Shown here: positions 1,923-26,771 of the stretch, in pieces
Position numbering within the stretch: position 1 is the first letter of the stretch
Layout: every line of letters starts with the position of its first letter
IMG/VR virus record: IMGVR_UViG_3300009091_000007
Span: 1 to 42,484 of that record
DNA length: 42,484 nt
Strand: one strand, 5' to 3'
Origin: a virus
The notes under the pieces: model-generated
The model's input: only the letters and a program-made list of their open reading frames with translations
What the model was told of the DNA's origin: nothing
Database searches by the model: none
Position numbers and translations under genes: made by a program

Positions 1923-3005
1923 ATGAACAAAGAAGAAGAAAAGACAGCGTTGACAACCAACGTGTCAGAAAAAAAATCACTAACACCGTCAGAACGGTTT
2001 CTTGGTATGGTGCTGAAAAATTTCGGGTCAGTACCAGGCGAACTTAAACTTGCACCGTTTCACCAGAAATTGATTCAGAACTATTTCATTAAGATGGATA
2101 TGGTGCTGAAAACTGCTGAAGCAAAGCGGCTGACAAAATCGGAACAGTACCGCGAAGCACTCGCGTACACGTGGGACAATATCGACCGTGAAAAGATGTC
2201 AATCGATGTGGTTATTTTCGCAACGCTGGGAATTGATCCAATGCAGCCAAACCAGATCAACTTGATACCATATAAAAACGCATCGACAGGCAAATACGAC
2301 ATCAATTTCATGCTGGGTTATCGCGGTATCGAACTGAAGGCAACAAAATACGGCCTTGATGTTCCTGACGATGTTATTATCGAAGTCGTTTATTCAAATG
2401 ACGAATTCAGACCATTCAAAAAGAACGACAAAACACGTGTTGAAACGTATTCATTTGAAATCGGTAAAAAAACTGAAAACCCATTTGATCGCGGCGAAGT
2501 TGTGGGTGGTTTTTATTACATGAATTATTTTGATGCGCCAGAAAAAAACAAGCTCCGTTTGTTTTCCCTTGCTGACATTACCAAAAGAATTCCAAAAAAT
2601 GCCAGTGCCGAATTTTGGGGCGGTGAAAAGGACAACTGGAAGGACGGAAAAAAATCCGGTAAACTGAAAGTTGAAGGCTGGTTTGAAGAAATGGTTTTCA
2701 AAACAATTTCACGTGCAGCATACAATAGTATTACTATCGACAGCCAGAAGATTGACGATAATTATGTCAAATTGATTCAGCTTGAAGTTGACGGTAAGAA
2801 AACCACTGAAGAAAAAATTGACGATCATGTTAATGAAAACACCGGGTCTGTTATTTTCGACGATCACATTGAAGTTGAAGAACCGGCAGCGGAACAACAA
2901 CCGGCAACCGGCCCAGCGTCTGAAGTAAAAAAGCCAGTAGCTGAAGCGAAGCCAAAAGTTGAAAAGAAAAAAACAGAAGGCGGCGGTAACGGTCCAGGAT
3001 TCTAA
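1923..3005 (+). CDS. recT: RecT-family single-strand annealing protein
   Basis: The product is 360 aa. Residues about 50-280 match the RecT pattern: a helical N-terminus, then LGIDPMQPNQINLIPY and the conserved INFMLGYRGIELKATKYG block, then GGFYYMNY and a C-terminal WFEEMVFKTISRAA segment. RecT proteins coat ssDNA and anneal complementary strands for phage recombination. The last 70 residues are a Pro/Ala/Glu/Lys-rich tail ending in a Gly-rich tip, probably flexible. It lies 31 bp after the ATPase and 2 bp before the MBL-fold gene, so the three are probably co-transcribed. The start ATG follows an A/T-rich leader. The family call is strong. Confidence 0.93.
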   Translation: MNKEEEKTALTTNVSEKKSLTPSERFLGMVLKNFGSVPGELKLAPFHQKLIQNYFIKMDMVLKTAEAKRLTKSEQYREALAYTWDNIDREKMSIDVVIFATLGIDPMQPNQINLIPYKNASTGKYDINFMLGYRGIELKATKYGLDVPDDVIIEVVYSNDEFRPFKKNDKTRVETYSFEIGKKTENPFDRGEVVGGFYYMNYFDAPEKNKLRLFSLADITKRIPKNASAEFWGGEKDNWKDGKKSGKLKVEGWFEEMVFKTISRAAYNSITIDSQKIDDNYVKLIQLEVDGKKTTEEKIDDHVNENTGSVIFDDHIEVEEPAAEQQPATGPASEVKKPVAEAKPKVEKKKTEGGGNGPGF

Positions 3006-3007
3006 AC

Positions 3008-3748
3008 ATGAAGTTGACGGTAGTAGGGACAGGTAGCAAAGGAAATTGCTACCTGTTAACCGCCAGCAACGGCGAAACGTTGATAATCGAAGCAGGCGTT
3101 CATGTGAAGGAAATAAAAGAAGCAATGGGCTTTTCGTTCAATAGCGTTGTGGGCTGCATAATAACACACGAACACAACGATCACGCTGTTGCGGCCGGCC
3201 ATCTTCAGAACTTAGGAATTGATACCTATTCCACACGTGGAACGCACAAGGCAATGAACTGGACATCGCACAGGTCAAAATGTTTCCCGACCGAAACGAT
3301 GACAATTTCGCTGGGCGAATTTCGTGTTATTGCTTTCGACGTTCAGCACGATGCTGCTGAACCGGTCGGGTTCTTGATCCATCACAAAGAATGTGGCAAG
3401 GTTTTGTTCCTGACTGACACGTGTATGTGTAAATATTCATTCGCTGGGCTGAACAACGTGCTGATCGAAGCCAACTATTCAAAGAAAATCATTGCCGAAC
3501 GATATGGCGACGGTGCTGACGATTTTCTGAAGGATCGGGTTGCGAAGTCTCACATGAGTCTTGAAACGTGTCTGAAGACGCTTGAAGTGAATGATCTGGC
3601 AGCGGTCAACAATATCGTGCTGATCCATTTGAGCGATACCAATAGCCATGCGCTTGAATTTGCGCAAGCCGTGACCGACCAAACGGGCAAAAATGTATGC
3701 GTTGCGTCTGCCGGTATGGTGATACCCTTCGACAAAACACCATTTTAG
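3008..3748 (+). CDS. MBL-fold metallohydrolase (YycJ/WalJ-like), putative recombination nuclease
   Basis: The product is 246 aa with the full metallo-beta-lactamase set: HEHNDH metal-binding motif around residues 56-61, a later HDAAEP histidine, LTDT aspartate, EANYS, and a C-terminal LIHLSDTNSH histidine block. The overall order resembles YycJ/WalJ-type proteins, which are DNA exonuclease-like MBL enzymes. Its start is 2 bp after the recT stop, so translation is probably coupled. Recombination operons usually pair an annealing protein with an exonuclease, and no lambda-exo or RecE-like gene is present, so this protein may fill that role. The fold is seen directly; nuclease activity on DNA is inferred. 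Confidence 0.85.
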   Translation: MKLTVVGTGSKGNCYLLTASNGETLIIEAGVHVKEIKEAMGFSFNSVVGCIITHEHNDHAVAAGHLQNLGIDTYSTRGTHKAMNWTSHRSKCFPTETMTISLGEFRVIAFDVQHDAAEPVGFLIHHKECGKVLFLTDTCMCKYSFAGLNNVLIEANYSKKIIAERYGDGADDFLKDRVAKSHMSLETCLKTLEVNDLAAVNNIVLIHLSDTNSHALEFAQAVTDQTGKNVCVASAGMVIPFDKTPF

Positions 3749-4112: not shown

Positions 4113-5003
4113 ATGTGGATTTTACCAAACAATCACCCGTTATTCTCTCACTATGTCCTGGAATGCTTGGTCTCGAAAGAGGATTTGAAAGAGCTTCTTC
4201 CCGAATTGGTTGGAGAAAGCACACAACCGCAGCTTATGTGGAGATCGAAGCCTTCATCGTTTGGAACTTGGTTAAGCAGATGGAGCAAGGTGTATTGGGT
4301 GCAGCACCTGTTCACTCGAACATTAAAACCTTCCCTTGGGAAGTCTTTCGAGGAAAAATACACGGAATCTTTGGAGGTTATCCCTGCCAGCCTTTCAGTG
4401 TTGCTGGAAAAGGAAAAGGAGTTGACGACCCTAGACACCTCTGGCCCTATATTTATTCCGGAATCCAATCAATTATGCCTGAATTTTGTTTTTTTGAAAA
4501 CGTCAGAAACCACCTTAACATTGGATACCAAGAAGTTAGGGGGGGGTTGGAAGCAATTGGTTACAAGGTTAGCGAAGGAATCTATTCAGCGCAAGAAATT
4601 GGCGCGCCTCACAAACGCGACCGCTTGTTTATCCTCGCTATCTTGGCCAACACCGACAGTAATGGCAACGAGAAAAGATATGCCGATAGAAGAAATCCGG
4701 AAAATCCAGGCAGTACTAAAACAGAGCAAGAAAAACGGGAACGGCTTCGGGCTGAATCTTCATCAAGCAGTAAAGATGTGGACAACTCCGAACACAAGGG
4801 ATTGGAAAGACACGCCCGGAATGAAGACAGTGAGAAAAGATGGAAGAGGCAAGATAGATCAGTTACCGCGTCAAGTTTTCCAATGGGACAAGGACAAAAT
4901 CAATATGAATGGGAAGTTACCCGTCTTAAATCCCGGCTGGGTCTTACAAATAATGGGTACAACTTTACAGAAGACCTTTTGCGAATGGCGGGAAATGGAG
5001 TAG
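4113..5003 (+). CDS. Overlapping second-frame ORF within the methyltransferase gene, 296 aa
   Basis: This frame is open for 297 codons, out of register with the methyltransferase frame. Its ATG (4113-4115) shares a G with the methyltransferase GTG (4115-4117). The frame also stays open back to an ATG at 4065, but that start lies inside the upstream gene, so 4113 is preferred. The product looks like a real protein. It has KPSSFGTWLSRWSKVYW near the N-terminus, WPTPT at residue 178, WTTPNTRDWK at residue 223 and LNPGWVLQIMG at residue 272. I recall similar WPTP...RDWK...LNP-W-MG segments in phage proteins associated with C5 methyltransferases, but could not search. In the same stretch the methyltransferase frame is low-complexity and charged. 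Function unknown. Alternatives are a conserved shadow frame or a frameshifted methyltransferase isoform. Confidence 0.6.
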   Translation: MWILPNNHPLFSHYVLECLVSKEDLKELLPELVGESTQPQLMWRSKPSSFGTWLSRWSKVYWVQHLFTRTLKPSLGKSFEEKYTESLEVIPASLSVLLEKEKELTTLDTSGPIFIPESNQLCLNFVFLKTSETTLTLDTKKLGGGWKQLVTRLAKESIQRKKLARLTNATACLSSLSWPTPTVMATRKDMPIEEIRKIQAVLKQSKKNGNGFGLNLHQAVKMWTTPNTRDWKDTPGMKTVRKDGRGKIDQLPRQVFQWDKDKINMNGKLPVLNPGWVLQIMGTTLQKTFCEWREME

Positions 5004-5062
5004 TTGAGCAGGTAGCCGAATTAGCATTTTTAGACCTTTTAAGAAAACACGATTTACAATAA
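4115..5062 (+). CDS. C5 cytosine-specific DNA methyltransferase
   Basis: The product is 315 aa. Visible motifs are a variant motif I (LSLCPGMLGLERGFE, residues about 11-25), motif IV GGYPCQPFS with catalytic Cys91, motif VI FENV with Glu128, motif VIII QEIGAPHKRDRLFILA, and motif X MAGNGV near the C-terminus. It transfers a methyl group to C5 of cytosine, probably protecting phage DNA from host restriction. The start is GTG: the frame is closed by a stop at 4085-4087, there is no in-frame ATG between that stop and motif I, and GTG overlaps the ATG of the second frame. Between motifs VIII and X, where the target-recognition domain should be, the sequence is Ser/Arg/Glu-rich and looks disordered. 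An alternative is that part of this region is read in the other frame. Confidence 0.88.
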   Translation: MDFTKQSPVILSLCPGMLGLERGFERASSRIGWRKHTTAAYVEIEAFIVWNLVKQMEQGVLGAAPVHSNIKTFPWEVFRGKIHGIFGGYPCQPFSVAGKGKGVDDPRHLWPYIYSGIQSIMPEFCFFENVRNHLNIGYQEVRGGLEAIGYKVSEGIYSAQEIGAPHKRDRLFILAILANTDSNGNEKRYADRRNPENPGSTKTEQEKRERLRAESSSSSKDVDNSEHKGLERHARNEDSEKRWKRQDRSVTASSFPMGQGQNQYEWEVTRLKSRLGLTNNGYNFTEDLLRMAGNGVVEQVAELAFLDLLRKHDLQ

Positions 5063-5704: not shown

Positions 5705-6214
5705 ATGGAACAGGAACTTCATAAACTGTGCATTGCGCTTGCTGGCCTACAATCTTCATGTCCCTGCGAAGCTCAATATTTCAATCTTTCACATTTAGAC
5801 GGATTTTTTGAATCAGCAGATATAGATAAACGTGTGTATATCGCTCCTACTATTTCAGAAAAGGTTTTAACAAGCGATGAAAGAAAAAGATTCGGAATAA
5901 GTTTCAGCGGAACAGCTCCAGAAAACGCAGGTCATTATGCTGAAATGATTAAACAAATGCTTGATAAAAGCAGATTCAGCGTGATTGATTTATTAACTGG
6001 CGAAAAAATTTGGCCAAAATCCCACAGCCTCAACCCGACCTTACAAGACCTTGAACGCCGATTCAATCGAACAGGACAACGACCTGCCGACCTATTCCCT
6101 GAAGGCTGGAAATTGACACGATTCCTTGATCTGGTCAGCGACAAAAAGAAAATGTACCTGCACTTCAGTCGGTACGGTAACCATAAAAAGCCACGCAATG
6201 AAAAAGATTATTAA
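5705..6214 (+). CDS. Hypothetical protein
   Basis: The product is 169 aa with no recognised motif. Features are a CPC pair near the N-terminus, a mixed alpha/beta middle and a basic C-terminus. The gene is tightly packed: it begins 3 bp after the previous stop and its end overlaps the ASCH gene start by 17 bp. The neighbourhood suggests an early accessory function. No function can be assigned. Confidence 0.7.
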   Translation: MEQELHKLCIALAGLQSSCPCEAQYFNLSHLDGFFESADIDKRVYIAPTISEKVLTSDERKRFGISFSGTAPENAGHYAEMIKQMLDKSRFSVIDLLTGEKIWPKSHSLNPTLQDLERRFNRTGQRPADLFPEGWKLTRFLDLVSDKKKMYLHFSRYGNHKKPRNEKDY

Positions 6215-6512
6215 AACGCTTCACCTTCCAATTAAAAAGGAATGGTTCGACATGATTGCTTCAGGAATTAAAACAGAAGAATACCGCGAAATTTCTGACC
6301 ATTGGATCGCGCGACTGATCGAAACAAAAGTCAAAGTTGTTGGCGAAGGCTTCAAAAAGTACGATGTGATTAAATTCACAAACGGTTATGCTGCAAACGC
6401 TCCTTCGCTAACAGTCGAACATATTAGCACGCATATTGGTTTAGGAAGAATAGGTTGGGGCGCTGATTTAGGCAAGAAATATTTTGTAATTAAATTAGGC
6501 GAAATATGTTAA
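6198..6512 (+). CDS. ASCH-domain protein
   Basis: The product is 104 aa. The N-terminal block LHLPIKKEWFDMIASGIKTEEYRE is the hallmark of the ASCH/PUA-like fold: a strand, then an aromatic, then SGxKxxEYR. ASCH proteins bind or act on RNA or modified nucleosides. Phage members are common but mostly uncharacterised. I chose the ATG at 6198 rather than the longer frame from 6126, because the domain starts immediately after it and the longer version would overlap the upstream gene by 89 bp. It overlaps the next gene by 7 bp. Confidence 0.82.
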   Translation: MKKIIKTLHLPIKKEWFDMIASGIKTEEYREISDHWIARLIETKVKVVGEGFKKYDVIKFTNGYAANAPSLTVEHISTHIGLGRIGWGADLGKKYFVIKLGEIC

Positions 6513-6764: not shown

Positions 6765-7406
6765 ATGAACGGAATCTTTAACGGTAAAACAGTCGCCTTC
6801 GTCGGGCAAGCGCCTATTCTTGAACGAAAAAGACTAGGGCCAGAAATTGATAAGCATGATATCGTGTATCGCACGAACATTTTCCCGATCCGCAACGAAG
6901 CTGACTACGGCAAGAAGTGTAACGTGATAAGCATATTGCCACGCTTCAACGAAATAATCAAGACAGTGGACGTAAAAAATCTAATCCTGTTCGACGAAGC
7001 TGCTGAAATCCGGTTCAACCAATCGAAATACATCGTGACCAAAGACGAGCGCAAGCAAATTGCCGCATGGGCGCTGGACGAACATAACCTTGATATTATC
7101 AGCCCGACTGCTGGGCTTGTTGCTTATTGGTTGGCGATGAAATTCGGCGCGGCTTCAGTGAAATTCTACGGAATTACCGGATATCAAAATAAATCTGGTG
7201 AAGTTGCAGATCACATCAACGAAAAACACTATACAGATTCCGTTTATGAATGGACGGGCACACCTAGAAATTCCGTAACTGCCGACATGAAGAATTACAA
7301 GTTTCACAACTTCACAAATCAAAATGATCTGTTCAGAATTCTACTGCGTCAGGAACTGATTCAGATGGATAAATACAGCCTTGAATATTTCAAACCAACA
7401 CCTTAG
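6765..7406 (+). CDS. GT29-like (sialyltransferase-fold) glycosyltransferase
   Basis: The product is 213 aa. GKTVAFVGQAPI..GPEIDKHDIVYRTN matches the large motif of family GT29-like enzymes (nucleotide-sugar binding, VGN-P...G..ID.HD-V-R-N). A second block, PTAGLVAYWLAMKFG..SVKFYGITG, matches the small motif, followed by a conserved-looking His (DHINEKHY). I chose the ATG at 6765, because the longer frame from 6642 would run through the upstream gene. Likely role: glycosylating a host surface glycan, phage DNA or a virion protein. The substrate cannot be read from sequence. Its stop overlaps the convergent tail gene stop. Confidence 0.75.
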   Translation: MNGIFNGKTVAFVGQAPILERKRLGPEIDKHDIVYRTNIFPIRNEADYGKKCNVISILPRFNEIIKTVDVKNLILFDEAAEIRFNQSKYIVTKDERKQIAAWALDEHNLDIISPTAGLVAYWLAMKFGAASVKFYGITGYQNKSGEVADHINEKHYTDSVYEWTGTPRNSVTADMKNYKFHNFTNQNDLFRILLRQELIQMDKYSLEYFKPTP

Positions 7407-25922: not shown

Positions 25923-26771
25923 TTAATATGTTCCGAATCCTTTGTTGTATAGTAGTTTTGCTTGCTCAATAGTCATTTCAGTGTGCTTTTTGAGTGGTTT
26001 AAAGTTACCATTCGATTCGAACATCACCAGTTCGCCAGGTTCAAATTTCCTGTCGTCTTCGTCTGGTGTTCTTTTAATATTTCTTTGTAATTCAAACAGC
26101 TTTTCACTATCTTCAGTACCAATTTCTTCAACCAGTATGTCGCCTTCTGTTAAATAACACAGATTAATTATAGCGTCTGGCGTTATGTTCCGGGTGTGTT
26201 TAATATCCACAAGAAAAGCGCCCGATTCTTCCATTGTAAAAGCTTTTTCGTGTGGCCATTTTGCGTTAACACTAGAATCAAGGCCGCGATTGATTCCTTC
26301 GCGCCACAATTTCCAGTTAAATTTTTCAAGAATCAGCCGGGAATAAAACCGACCAGCTCCTGCCGTCTGATTGCTGCCGCGATAACCCGGCCAGTAATGT
26401 AGATCCTTTGTTCTTGTGCTAAAAAAATATAGATCAGTAATACCGATAATGTGATTTTCAGAAGGGGTTGCGTTTTTATACAGCCATGACCAATATTCAT
26501 CGTTCACCATGTCGTCAGAACCCATAACAACCACGCCATCAACGTCAAGTTCTTTCGCTTTCAACGTCATAGCATTGTGCTTATTCGACACGGGCCGGTT
26601 AGTTGCTTCAATGTAATGACAACCTTCAGCCAGGCGTTTAGAAATTTCACCTTCGCTGCCTGCAATGATGATTTCAAAGCCAAACTTTTCAGCCTGACGA
26701 CGAAACCTGTCGATGACAATCTTTTCGATGTCGTGACGTTTCCAGATTGCTATGACGAGGGCTATTTTCAT
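25923..26771 (-). CDS. Glycosyltransferase-like protein (GT-A fold) in the capsid operon
   Basis: The product is 282 aa. MKIALVIAIWKRHDIEKIVID opens like a GT2 Rossmann strand-helix, and VVMGSDDMV (residues 81-89) supplies the DxD-type acidic motif that binds metal and nucleotide sugar. Later blocks (YWPGYRGSNQTAGAGRFYSR, WPHEKAFTMEESG) fit an acceptor region. It sits between the major capsid gene and head-tail genes, downstream of a terminator. It may glycosylate a virion protein or the host surface. The fold is fairly clear, the substrate is not. Confidence 0.72.
   Translation of the reverse strand: MKIALVIAIWKRHDIEKIVIDRFRRQAEKFGFEIIIAGSEGEISKRLAEGCHYIEATNRPVSNKHNAMTLKAKELDVDGVVVMGSDDMVNDEYWSWLYKNATPSENHIIGITDLYFFSTRTKDLHYWPGYRGSNQTAGAGRFYSRLILEKFNWKLWREGINRGLDSSVNAKWPHEKAFTMEESGAFLVDIKHTRNITPDAIINLCYLTEGDILVEEIGTEDSEKLFELQRNIKRTPDEDDRKFEPGELVMFESNGNFKPLKKHTEMTIEQAKLLYNKGFGTY

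Follow-up and report, generated by a model that had tools for sequence, protein, structure and literature searches.

C5-cytosine DNA methyltransferases that are split between two chains are already known. For EcoHK31I, Lee, Kam & Shaw are said to have reported in 1995 that a different reading frame within the alpha gene encodes beta, and that both proteins are needed in vitro. M.EcoHK31I (E. coli, YGGCCR) is naturally made of two polypeptides, of which the larger carries motifs I–VIII and X and the smaller carries motif IX, and M.AquI (CYCGRG) is an active enzyme formed from two polypeptides with motifs I–VIII in one chain and motif IX in the other (PMC3404938). Fragments of M.SssI, M.HhaI and other enzymes complement one another, best when the split is placed between motif VIII and the target-recognition domain (TRD) (PMC3404938, PMC3439449). 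Here we describe a locus at positions 4113–5062 of the virus record IMGVR_UViG_3300009091_000007, in which a C5 methyltransferase gene (alpha, 4115–5062) is covered almost end to end by a second open reading frame (ORF) on the same strand (beta, 4113–5003). The whole 42,484-bp record, which carries portal, terminase, capsid and tape-measure genes, is referred to below as the window. The arrangement is a real dual-coding locus, and most likely the phage counterpart of the EcoHK31I system.

The multispecific phage C5 methyltransferases SPR, phi3T and rho11s carry several short recognition modules in a row, each exchangeable and ~40 amino acids (aa) long, within a single chain and a single frame. 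A phage methylase gene that conceals an ORF in another frame is known from the ShiLan insertion in actinophage methylases, which encodes a homing HNH endonuclease and has a patchy distribution (PMC11855218).

Our preferred interpretation, which we consider probable, is that the locus encodes a heterodimeric C5-cytosine DNA methyltransferase of the M.EcoHK31I type, with alpha as the catalytic subunit and beta supplying target recognition and motif IX in trans. That the two proteins are probably halves of one enzyme, and that nature offers a precedent in M.EcoHK31I, are points absent from the original prediction for this locus, which was made from the window sequence. The coordinates in that prediction were right, with a methyltransferase ORF at 4115–5062 and a second frame running from ATG 4113 to TAG 5003; the beta frame is also open further upstream, to ATG 4065. 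Alpha matches PF00145 (E 1.9e-27) and phrog_363 (E 1.2e-43), and the window beta matches phrog_1008 (E 2.5e-9). The alpha frame is referred to as frame 0 and the beta frame as +1. The features of the locus are as follows.

4115–5062, plus strand: alpha ORF, GTG start, 315 aa; C5-cytosine DNA methyltransferase catalytic subunit with motifs I–VIII and X.
4113–5003, plus strand: beta ORF in the +1 frame, ATG start, TAG stop, 296 aa; putative target-recognition and motif IX subunit.
4113–4117, plus strand: overlapping start codons ATGTG (ATG, beta start; GTG, alpha start).
4145–4183, plus strand: alpha motif I region (LSLCPGMLGLERG), conserved in alignments A1 and A6.
4382–4399, plus strand: alpha motif IV, catalytic PCQPFS, invariant in alignment A6.
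4490–4510, plus strand: alpha ENV motif (FFENVRN), with E-N-V invariant in alignment A6.
4536–4622, plus strand: beta residues 142–170, the sole long helix modelled confidently (AlphaFold2).
4601–4624, plus strand: alpha motif VIII region (GAPHKRDR); constraint moves to the beta frame just 3′ of here.
4644–4778, plus strand: beta module 1 (WPTPTVMATRKDMPIEEIRKIQAVLKQSKKNGNGFGLNLHQAVKM), of a type that L006 and Polyangium fumosum (L103) also have.
4655–4969, plus strand: alpha residues 181–285, a low-confidence, largely disordered linker overlying the beta modules and motif IX.
4779–4925, plus strand: beta module 2 (WTTPNTRDWKDTPGMKTVRKDGRGKIDQLPRQVFQ...), sharing ~50% identity with the Vibrio phage Marilyn +1 frame.
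4880–4912, plus strand: conserved alpha-frame patch PMGQGQNQYEW inside the linker (family pattern WPxRPGxxQxxWExPR).
4926–4958, plus strand: beta motif IX-like element LNPGWVLQIMG, with conserved +1 columns.
4988–5011, plus strand: alpha motif X (AGNGVVEQ), with G293 and N294 invariant in alignment A6.

Stop codons in the second frame

The beta frame of the window contains 0 stops against 4.75 expected when the alpha protein is held fixed and its synonymous codons are shuffled (P=0.0012), and a stop-free frame has P=0.00015 when the order of the alpha codons is permuted. The third frame contains 21 stops, against 23.0 expected. On these two P values, the window taken alone gives a moderate case for dual coding; the far smaller chance of (61/64)^297 offered in the original prediction used the wrong null, as it assumes random codons.

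The homologues put the open +1 frame far beyond chance. A set of 80 viral loci was fetched by alpha-frame motifs only, and 74 of these were usable in a regional stop test; they are mutually related, so that the counts do not amount to 74 independent tests, and cores with <45% identity are common among the loci. It was found that the +1 frame had 1 stop against 198 expected before motif VIII and 1 against 151 after it, and that stops in the +2 frame were near expectation in both regions (564 against 562 before, 557 against 564 after). The second frame is thus unbroken by stops in the window-type homologues. No stop depletion was seen in the C5 methyltransferase of mycobacteriophage Graduation, which is without the full overlap (7 stops against 6.7 expected). 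The +1 products of all 57 of the 57 window-type relatives matched phrog_1008. The resemblance of the second frame to phage segments associated with C5 methyltransferases, as given in the original prediction, was right: the window +1 product matches both phage records and this family.

Selection in the two frames

Substitution rates were estimated by joint class, nonsynonymous (N) or synonymous (S) in each of the two frames, from 41 non-overlapping pairs of relatives; the estimator is a simple one, with no codon model or phylogeny, and synonymous-synonymous sites are few. Before motif VIII, alpha was strongly constrained (dNN/dSN 0.22) and beta weakly constrained (dNN/dNS 0.70, 95% range 0.63–0.77). 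After motif VIII, alpha was weakly constrained (0.58) and beta strongly constrained (dNN/dNS 0.24, 0.20–0.28). The control with +2 as the alternative frame gave 1.22 before motif VIII and 1.51 after it, and substitutions in the second frame are thus not neutral. Neither of the two sequence patterns that the original prediction named as counting against it, a second frame broken by stops in homologues and neutral substitution there, was seen. Both frames are conserved proteins, and strong constraint switches from the alpha frame to the beta frame after motif VIII.

At the end of beta, the +1 columns of N-P-x-W-V-E-x-L-M-G were 0.86–0.97 conserved where most of the alpha residues varied. The LGRxxDG of alpha at the motif IX site is largely dictated by the +1 residues.

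Start codons and the number of polypeptides

For the 77 window-type loci with an intact 5′ end, ATGTGG was present at the shared start in 59, with beta beginning M-W-I-L-P from its ATG and alpha beginning at its GTG. No alternative alpha start lies between ATGTGG and the preceding stop in 40 of these 59 loci, and the next alpha ATG in the ATGTGG loci is usually ~50 codons downstream, beyond motif I. In a nested subtype, beta starts inside alpha, typically ~16 codons upstream of PCQ, and a Shine–Dalgarno-like sequence precedes the beta ATG in 29 of 44 loci, compared with 68 of 632 other ATGs of the same genes (p=3e-16). Conserved starts and internal Shine–Dalgarno sites, together with stop depletion, codon-level purifying selection and phrog_1008, strongly support a second protein in the +1 frame, which the original prediction had called plausible.

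Separate beta starts, whether as ATGTG or as an internal Shine–Dalgarno sequence and ATG, favour two polypeptides over programmed ribosomal frameshifting, in which translation would start in alpha and shift by +1 after motif VIII to produce a single chain with motifs I–VIII, the WPTP modules of the beta frame and motif IX. The +1 frame is moreover open and selected upstream of any shift site (1 stop against 198; dNN/dNS 0.70), and motif X is back in frame 0 in most loci, so that a second shift would be required. A frameshift would suit the position of the most conserved part of beta, which starts directly after motif VIII, and one locus (L198, ~1990–3550) is laid out as a frameshift gene should be, with alpha ending shortly beyond motif VIII and the modules, motif IX and motif X all in the +1 frame. 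An assembly error is possible in L198. Some of the phrog_1008 family includes motif X, as this locus does. A frameshifted isoform, named in the original prediction beside a second protein, is the less likely of the two because of beta's own start and the open, conserved +1 frame upstream of any shift site, and we regard it as improbable.

A run of eight G residues is present at 4539–4546 inside alpha, and a one-base slip there would join the N-terminal part of alpha to the beta frame. Phase variation through this tract was rejected as a general mechanism, since the tract is missing from the closest relative (L006).

Structure prediction for alpha

The AlphaFold2 model of alpha had a predicted local distance difference test score (pLDDT) of mostly ~93 for residues 1–180 and up to ~97 for the motif X helices. 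Most of residues 181–285 scored below 57, with 217–258 and 271–279 below 50. The model confirms what had been noticed from the sequence, namely that disorder in the methyltransferase frame coincides with the most protein-like part of the second frame. The core motifs of a C5-cytosine DNA methyltransferase (I, IV (PCQ), ENV, VIII and X) are all present in alpha. Alpha does not carry a TRD and motif IX of its own: residues 181–285 are of low confidence, no small domain is modelled there, and the motif IX-like element lies in +1. Foldseek matched the alpha model to M.HaeIII and M.HhaI over ~180–190 residues, a little over half of either enzyme. In known C5 enzymes, every specific DNA contact comes from the small domain, where the variable region and motif IX are located (PMC3404938). 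By the alpha model and the Foldseek coverage, the piece missing from alpha is therefore the small domain.

Beta modules and the motif IX-like element

The C-terminal half of beta is a row of 'WPTP' modules, of which 350 were extracted (median 40 aa). Module types recur on catalytic cores that are <45% identical; the 278 module pairs on such cores had an identity of 0.61 in the +1 frame and 0.28 in frame 0, values that are biased because the pairs were picked by +1 similarity. The informative part is the wobble excess, with differences between shared modules concentrated on the +1 wobble base (6460 against 3913 and 3071). Modules resembling window module 2 were read in loci of Vibrio, Klebsiella, cyanophage, Rhodobacter and Thalassospiraceae origin, and L113 is one of the loci concerned.

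Beta ends with the element LNPxWVExLMGLPxGW, which was found in the +1 frame relative to the core in 162 loci and in frame 0 in two (L112 and L116); some of these loci are duplicates, among them five from a single Roseovarius assembly. The Roseovarius copies (L104–L108) are near-identical across the dual-frame methyltransferase region. L116 looks like a frameshifted copy. In L112 (2559–3545, alphaproteobacterial), the element lies between motifs VIII and X in frame with the core, and the WPTP modules are still in the +1 frame, which stops before motif IX. Graduation (L012, 1001–1828) has a related element, LMGLPRGW, in frame, and its +1 frame retains a short LLPTP-like remnant. No locus examined looked like a single-frame ancestor in which the WPTP modules and motifs IX and X would all share the frame of the core.

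The L112 and Graduation elements argue against beta being a genuine overlapping protein that does something unrelated, for example in anti-defence or regulation, and whose LNPxWVExLMG resembles motif IX by chance or through old ancestry. Such a protein would be consistent with a poor structural model for beta and with its N-terminal half, overprinted on the catalytic domain, being without a known homologue; however, alpha has nothing confidently modelled where motif IX and the TRD belong, and all of the beta loci inspected overlap an alpha. An unrelated function is accordingly unlikely. A shadow frame with no product, open and similar merely through constraint on the methyltransferase frame, could exploit the codon positions that overlapping frames share (the alpha repeat LADSxxxGLE gives WPTPxxxDWK in +1), but is extremely improbable and was rejected on the synonymous shuffles, the +2 control, conservation by codon position at both the motif IX columns and the module wobble bases, and the lack of stop depletion in Graduation.

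A proposed two-subunit methyltransferase

For the proposed heterodimer, alpha (frame 2) would fold as the catalytic large domain, in which a disordered linker of ~100 residues separates motifs I–VIII from motif X. Beta (frame 3) would be translated separately from the ATG overlapping the GTG of alpha, and would bring two WPTP target-recognition-like modules and motif IX, corresponding to the small DNA-reading domain of single-chain enzymes. Beta would bind alpha, and the assembled chains would methylate phage DNA at sequences selected by the beta modules. From the phage context, methylation would most likely shield the phage DNA from host restriction; no cognate nuclease was identified among the neighbouring genes, which were scanned in part.

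Several observations weigh against this heterodimer. The AlphaFold2 model of beta alone is poor (pLDDT 54.7; predicted template modelling score, pTM, 0.22) and so lends no support to a folded recognition domain in beta; the helix at residues 142–170 reaches a block pLDDT of up to 92, and W146, V150, R154, R160 and K162 within it are invariant or nearly so. The +1 alignment had no match when searched against Pfam, NCBIfam and PDB sequences. HMMER aligns the L112 element to motifs IX–X of M.HhaI with a score of only 3 bits, and the motif IX match therefore rests on the position of the element between motifs VIII and X. The alpha linker is not a pure shadow of beta, since the patch W..PG..Q..WE.PR is kept in the alpha frame (column conservation: W 1.00, Q 0.95, E 0.95, P 0.92–0.93). 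No Shine–Dalgarno sequence is present upstream of the beta ATG in the window; A-rich starts are, however, usual in Bacteroidota, should the host be one of these. Finally, the predicted TRD of M.EcoHK31I is described in the larger chain (PMC3404938), whereas here the pattern of selection and the modules point to recognition by beta.

A broader proposal is that many phages keep catalysis in frame 0 and recognition in +1, with beta as a modular, exchangeable multi-target subunit, the modules spreading by recombination that keeps both frames open, and the shadow of the modules in alpha forming the disordered linker. We judge the chances of this proposal to be even.

Distribution and annotation

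A nested-type +1 query matched 225 phage records and 13 plasmid records, and the window's own +1 query matched 9 phage records. Genome contigs with a dual-frame locus were from Bacteroidota, Verrucomicrobiota, Planctomycetota, Pseudomonadota, Myxococcota, Bacillota and others. In phages and prophages together, the same two-frame arrangement is seen at well over a hundred loci.

Both frames are annotated in K1ind1, PhiXhv-5 and Leyra, and alpha alone is annotated in Escherichia phage Bas73 (L214, BASEL) and in three E. coli prophages (RefSeq). In the E. coli EC20 prophage (L205, 2863–4032), RefSeq splits the alpha gene into two incomplete pseudogene pieces. The label 'DNA methyltransferase' for phrog_1008 seems inherited from the overlapping catalytic gene; beta is without any methyltransferase catalytic motif.

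Long same-strand overlaps with demonstrable selection in both frames are rare, and annotation pipelines usually disallow such overlaps. If the broader proposal is correct, few long gene overlaps on one strand would be as widespread in double-stranded DNA phages as this one, which is as a rule half annotated. If the two-subunit interpretation is right, the specificity of many phage methyltransferases would have been sought in the wrong frame. It would also offer a testable case of two enzyme halves sharing the same DNA, in which recognition modules are swapped between phages with the catalytic frame left intact.

Elsewhere in the window, two ORFs (6772–7406 and 25923–26771) give the impression, from their sequences, of glycosyltransferase-related proteins, and a small ORF at 6202–6512 (MKKIIKTLHLPIKKEWFDMIASGIKTEEYRE...) similarly resembles an ASCH-type domain.

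Comparison with known systems

No description of a phage-wide methyltransferase overlap was found in the literature searched, and no such methyltransferase cluster is mentioned in the main text of the GeneTack frame-transition survey (PMC3711429). The phage-wide breadth, the modular beta, the switch of constraint at motif VIII and the shared ATGTG start appear to be undescribed.

For the hidden out-of-frame ORF, the likeness is to the ShiLan insertion; the window beta differs in being a putative subunit conserved along the whole gene. The rows of ~40-aa putative recognition modules would resemble those described for SPR, phi3T and rho11s, except that a frame apart from the catalytic one encodes them here. 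The small chain of M.AquI has motifs IX and X together, a combination absent from the window, where motif X is in alpha (4988–5011), but present in L198, and the layout of L198 is therefore nearer to M.AquI than that of the window.

The closest likeness is to M.EcoHK31I. Motifs I–VIII and X are in alpha and a motif IX-like element is in beta, the identity of motif IX resting partly on the weak, positional 3-bit match, and the small-chain gene overlaps the large-chain gene in another frame, as is reportedly also the case for EcoHK31I. Compared with EcoHK31I by its description only, the window beta differs in spanning nearly all of alpha from the overlapping ATGTG. If the two-subunit interpretation is correct, M.EcoHK31I would be the single characterised representative of an extensive family in phages.
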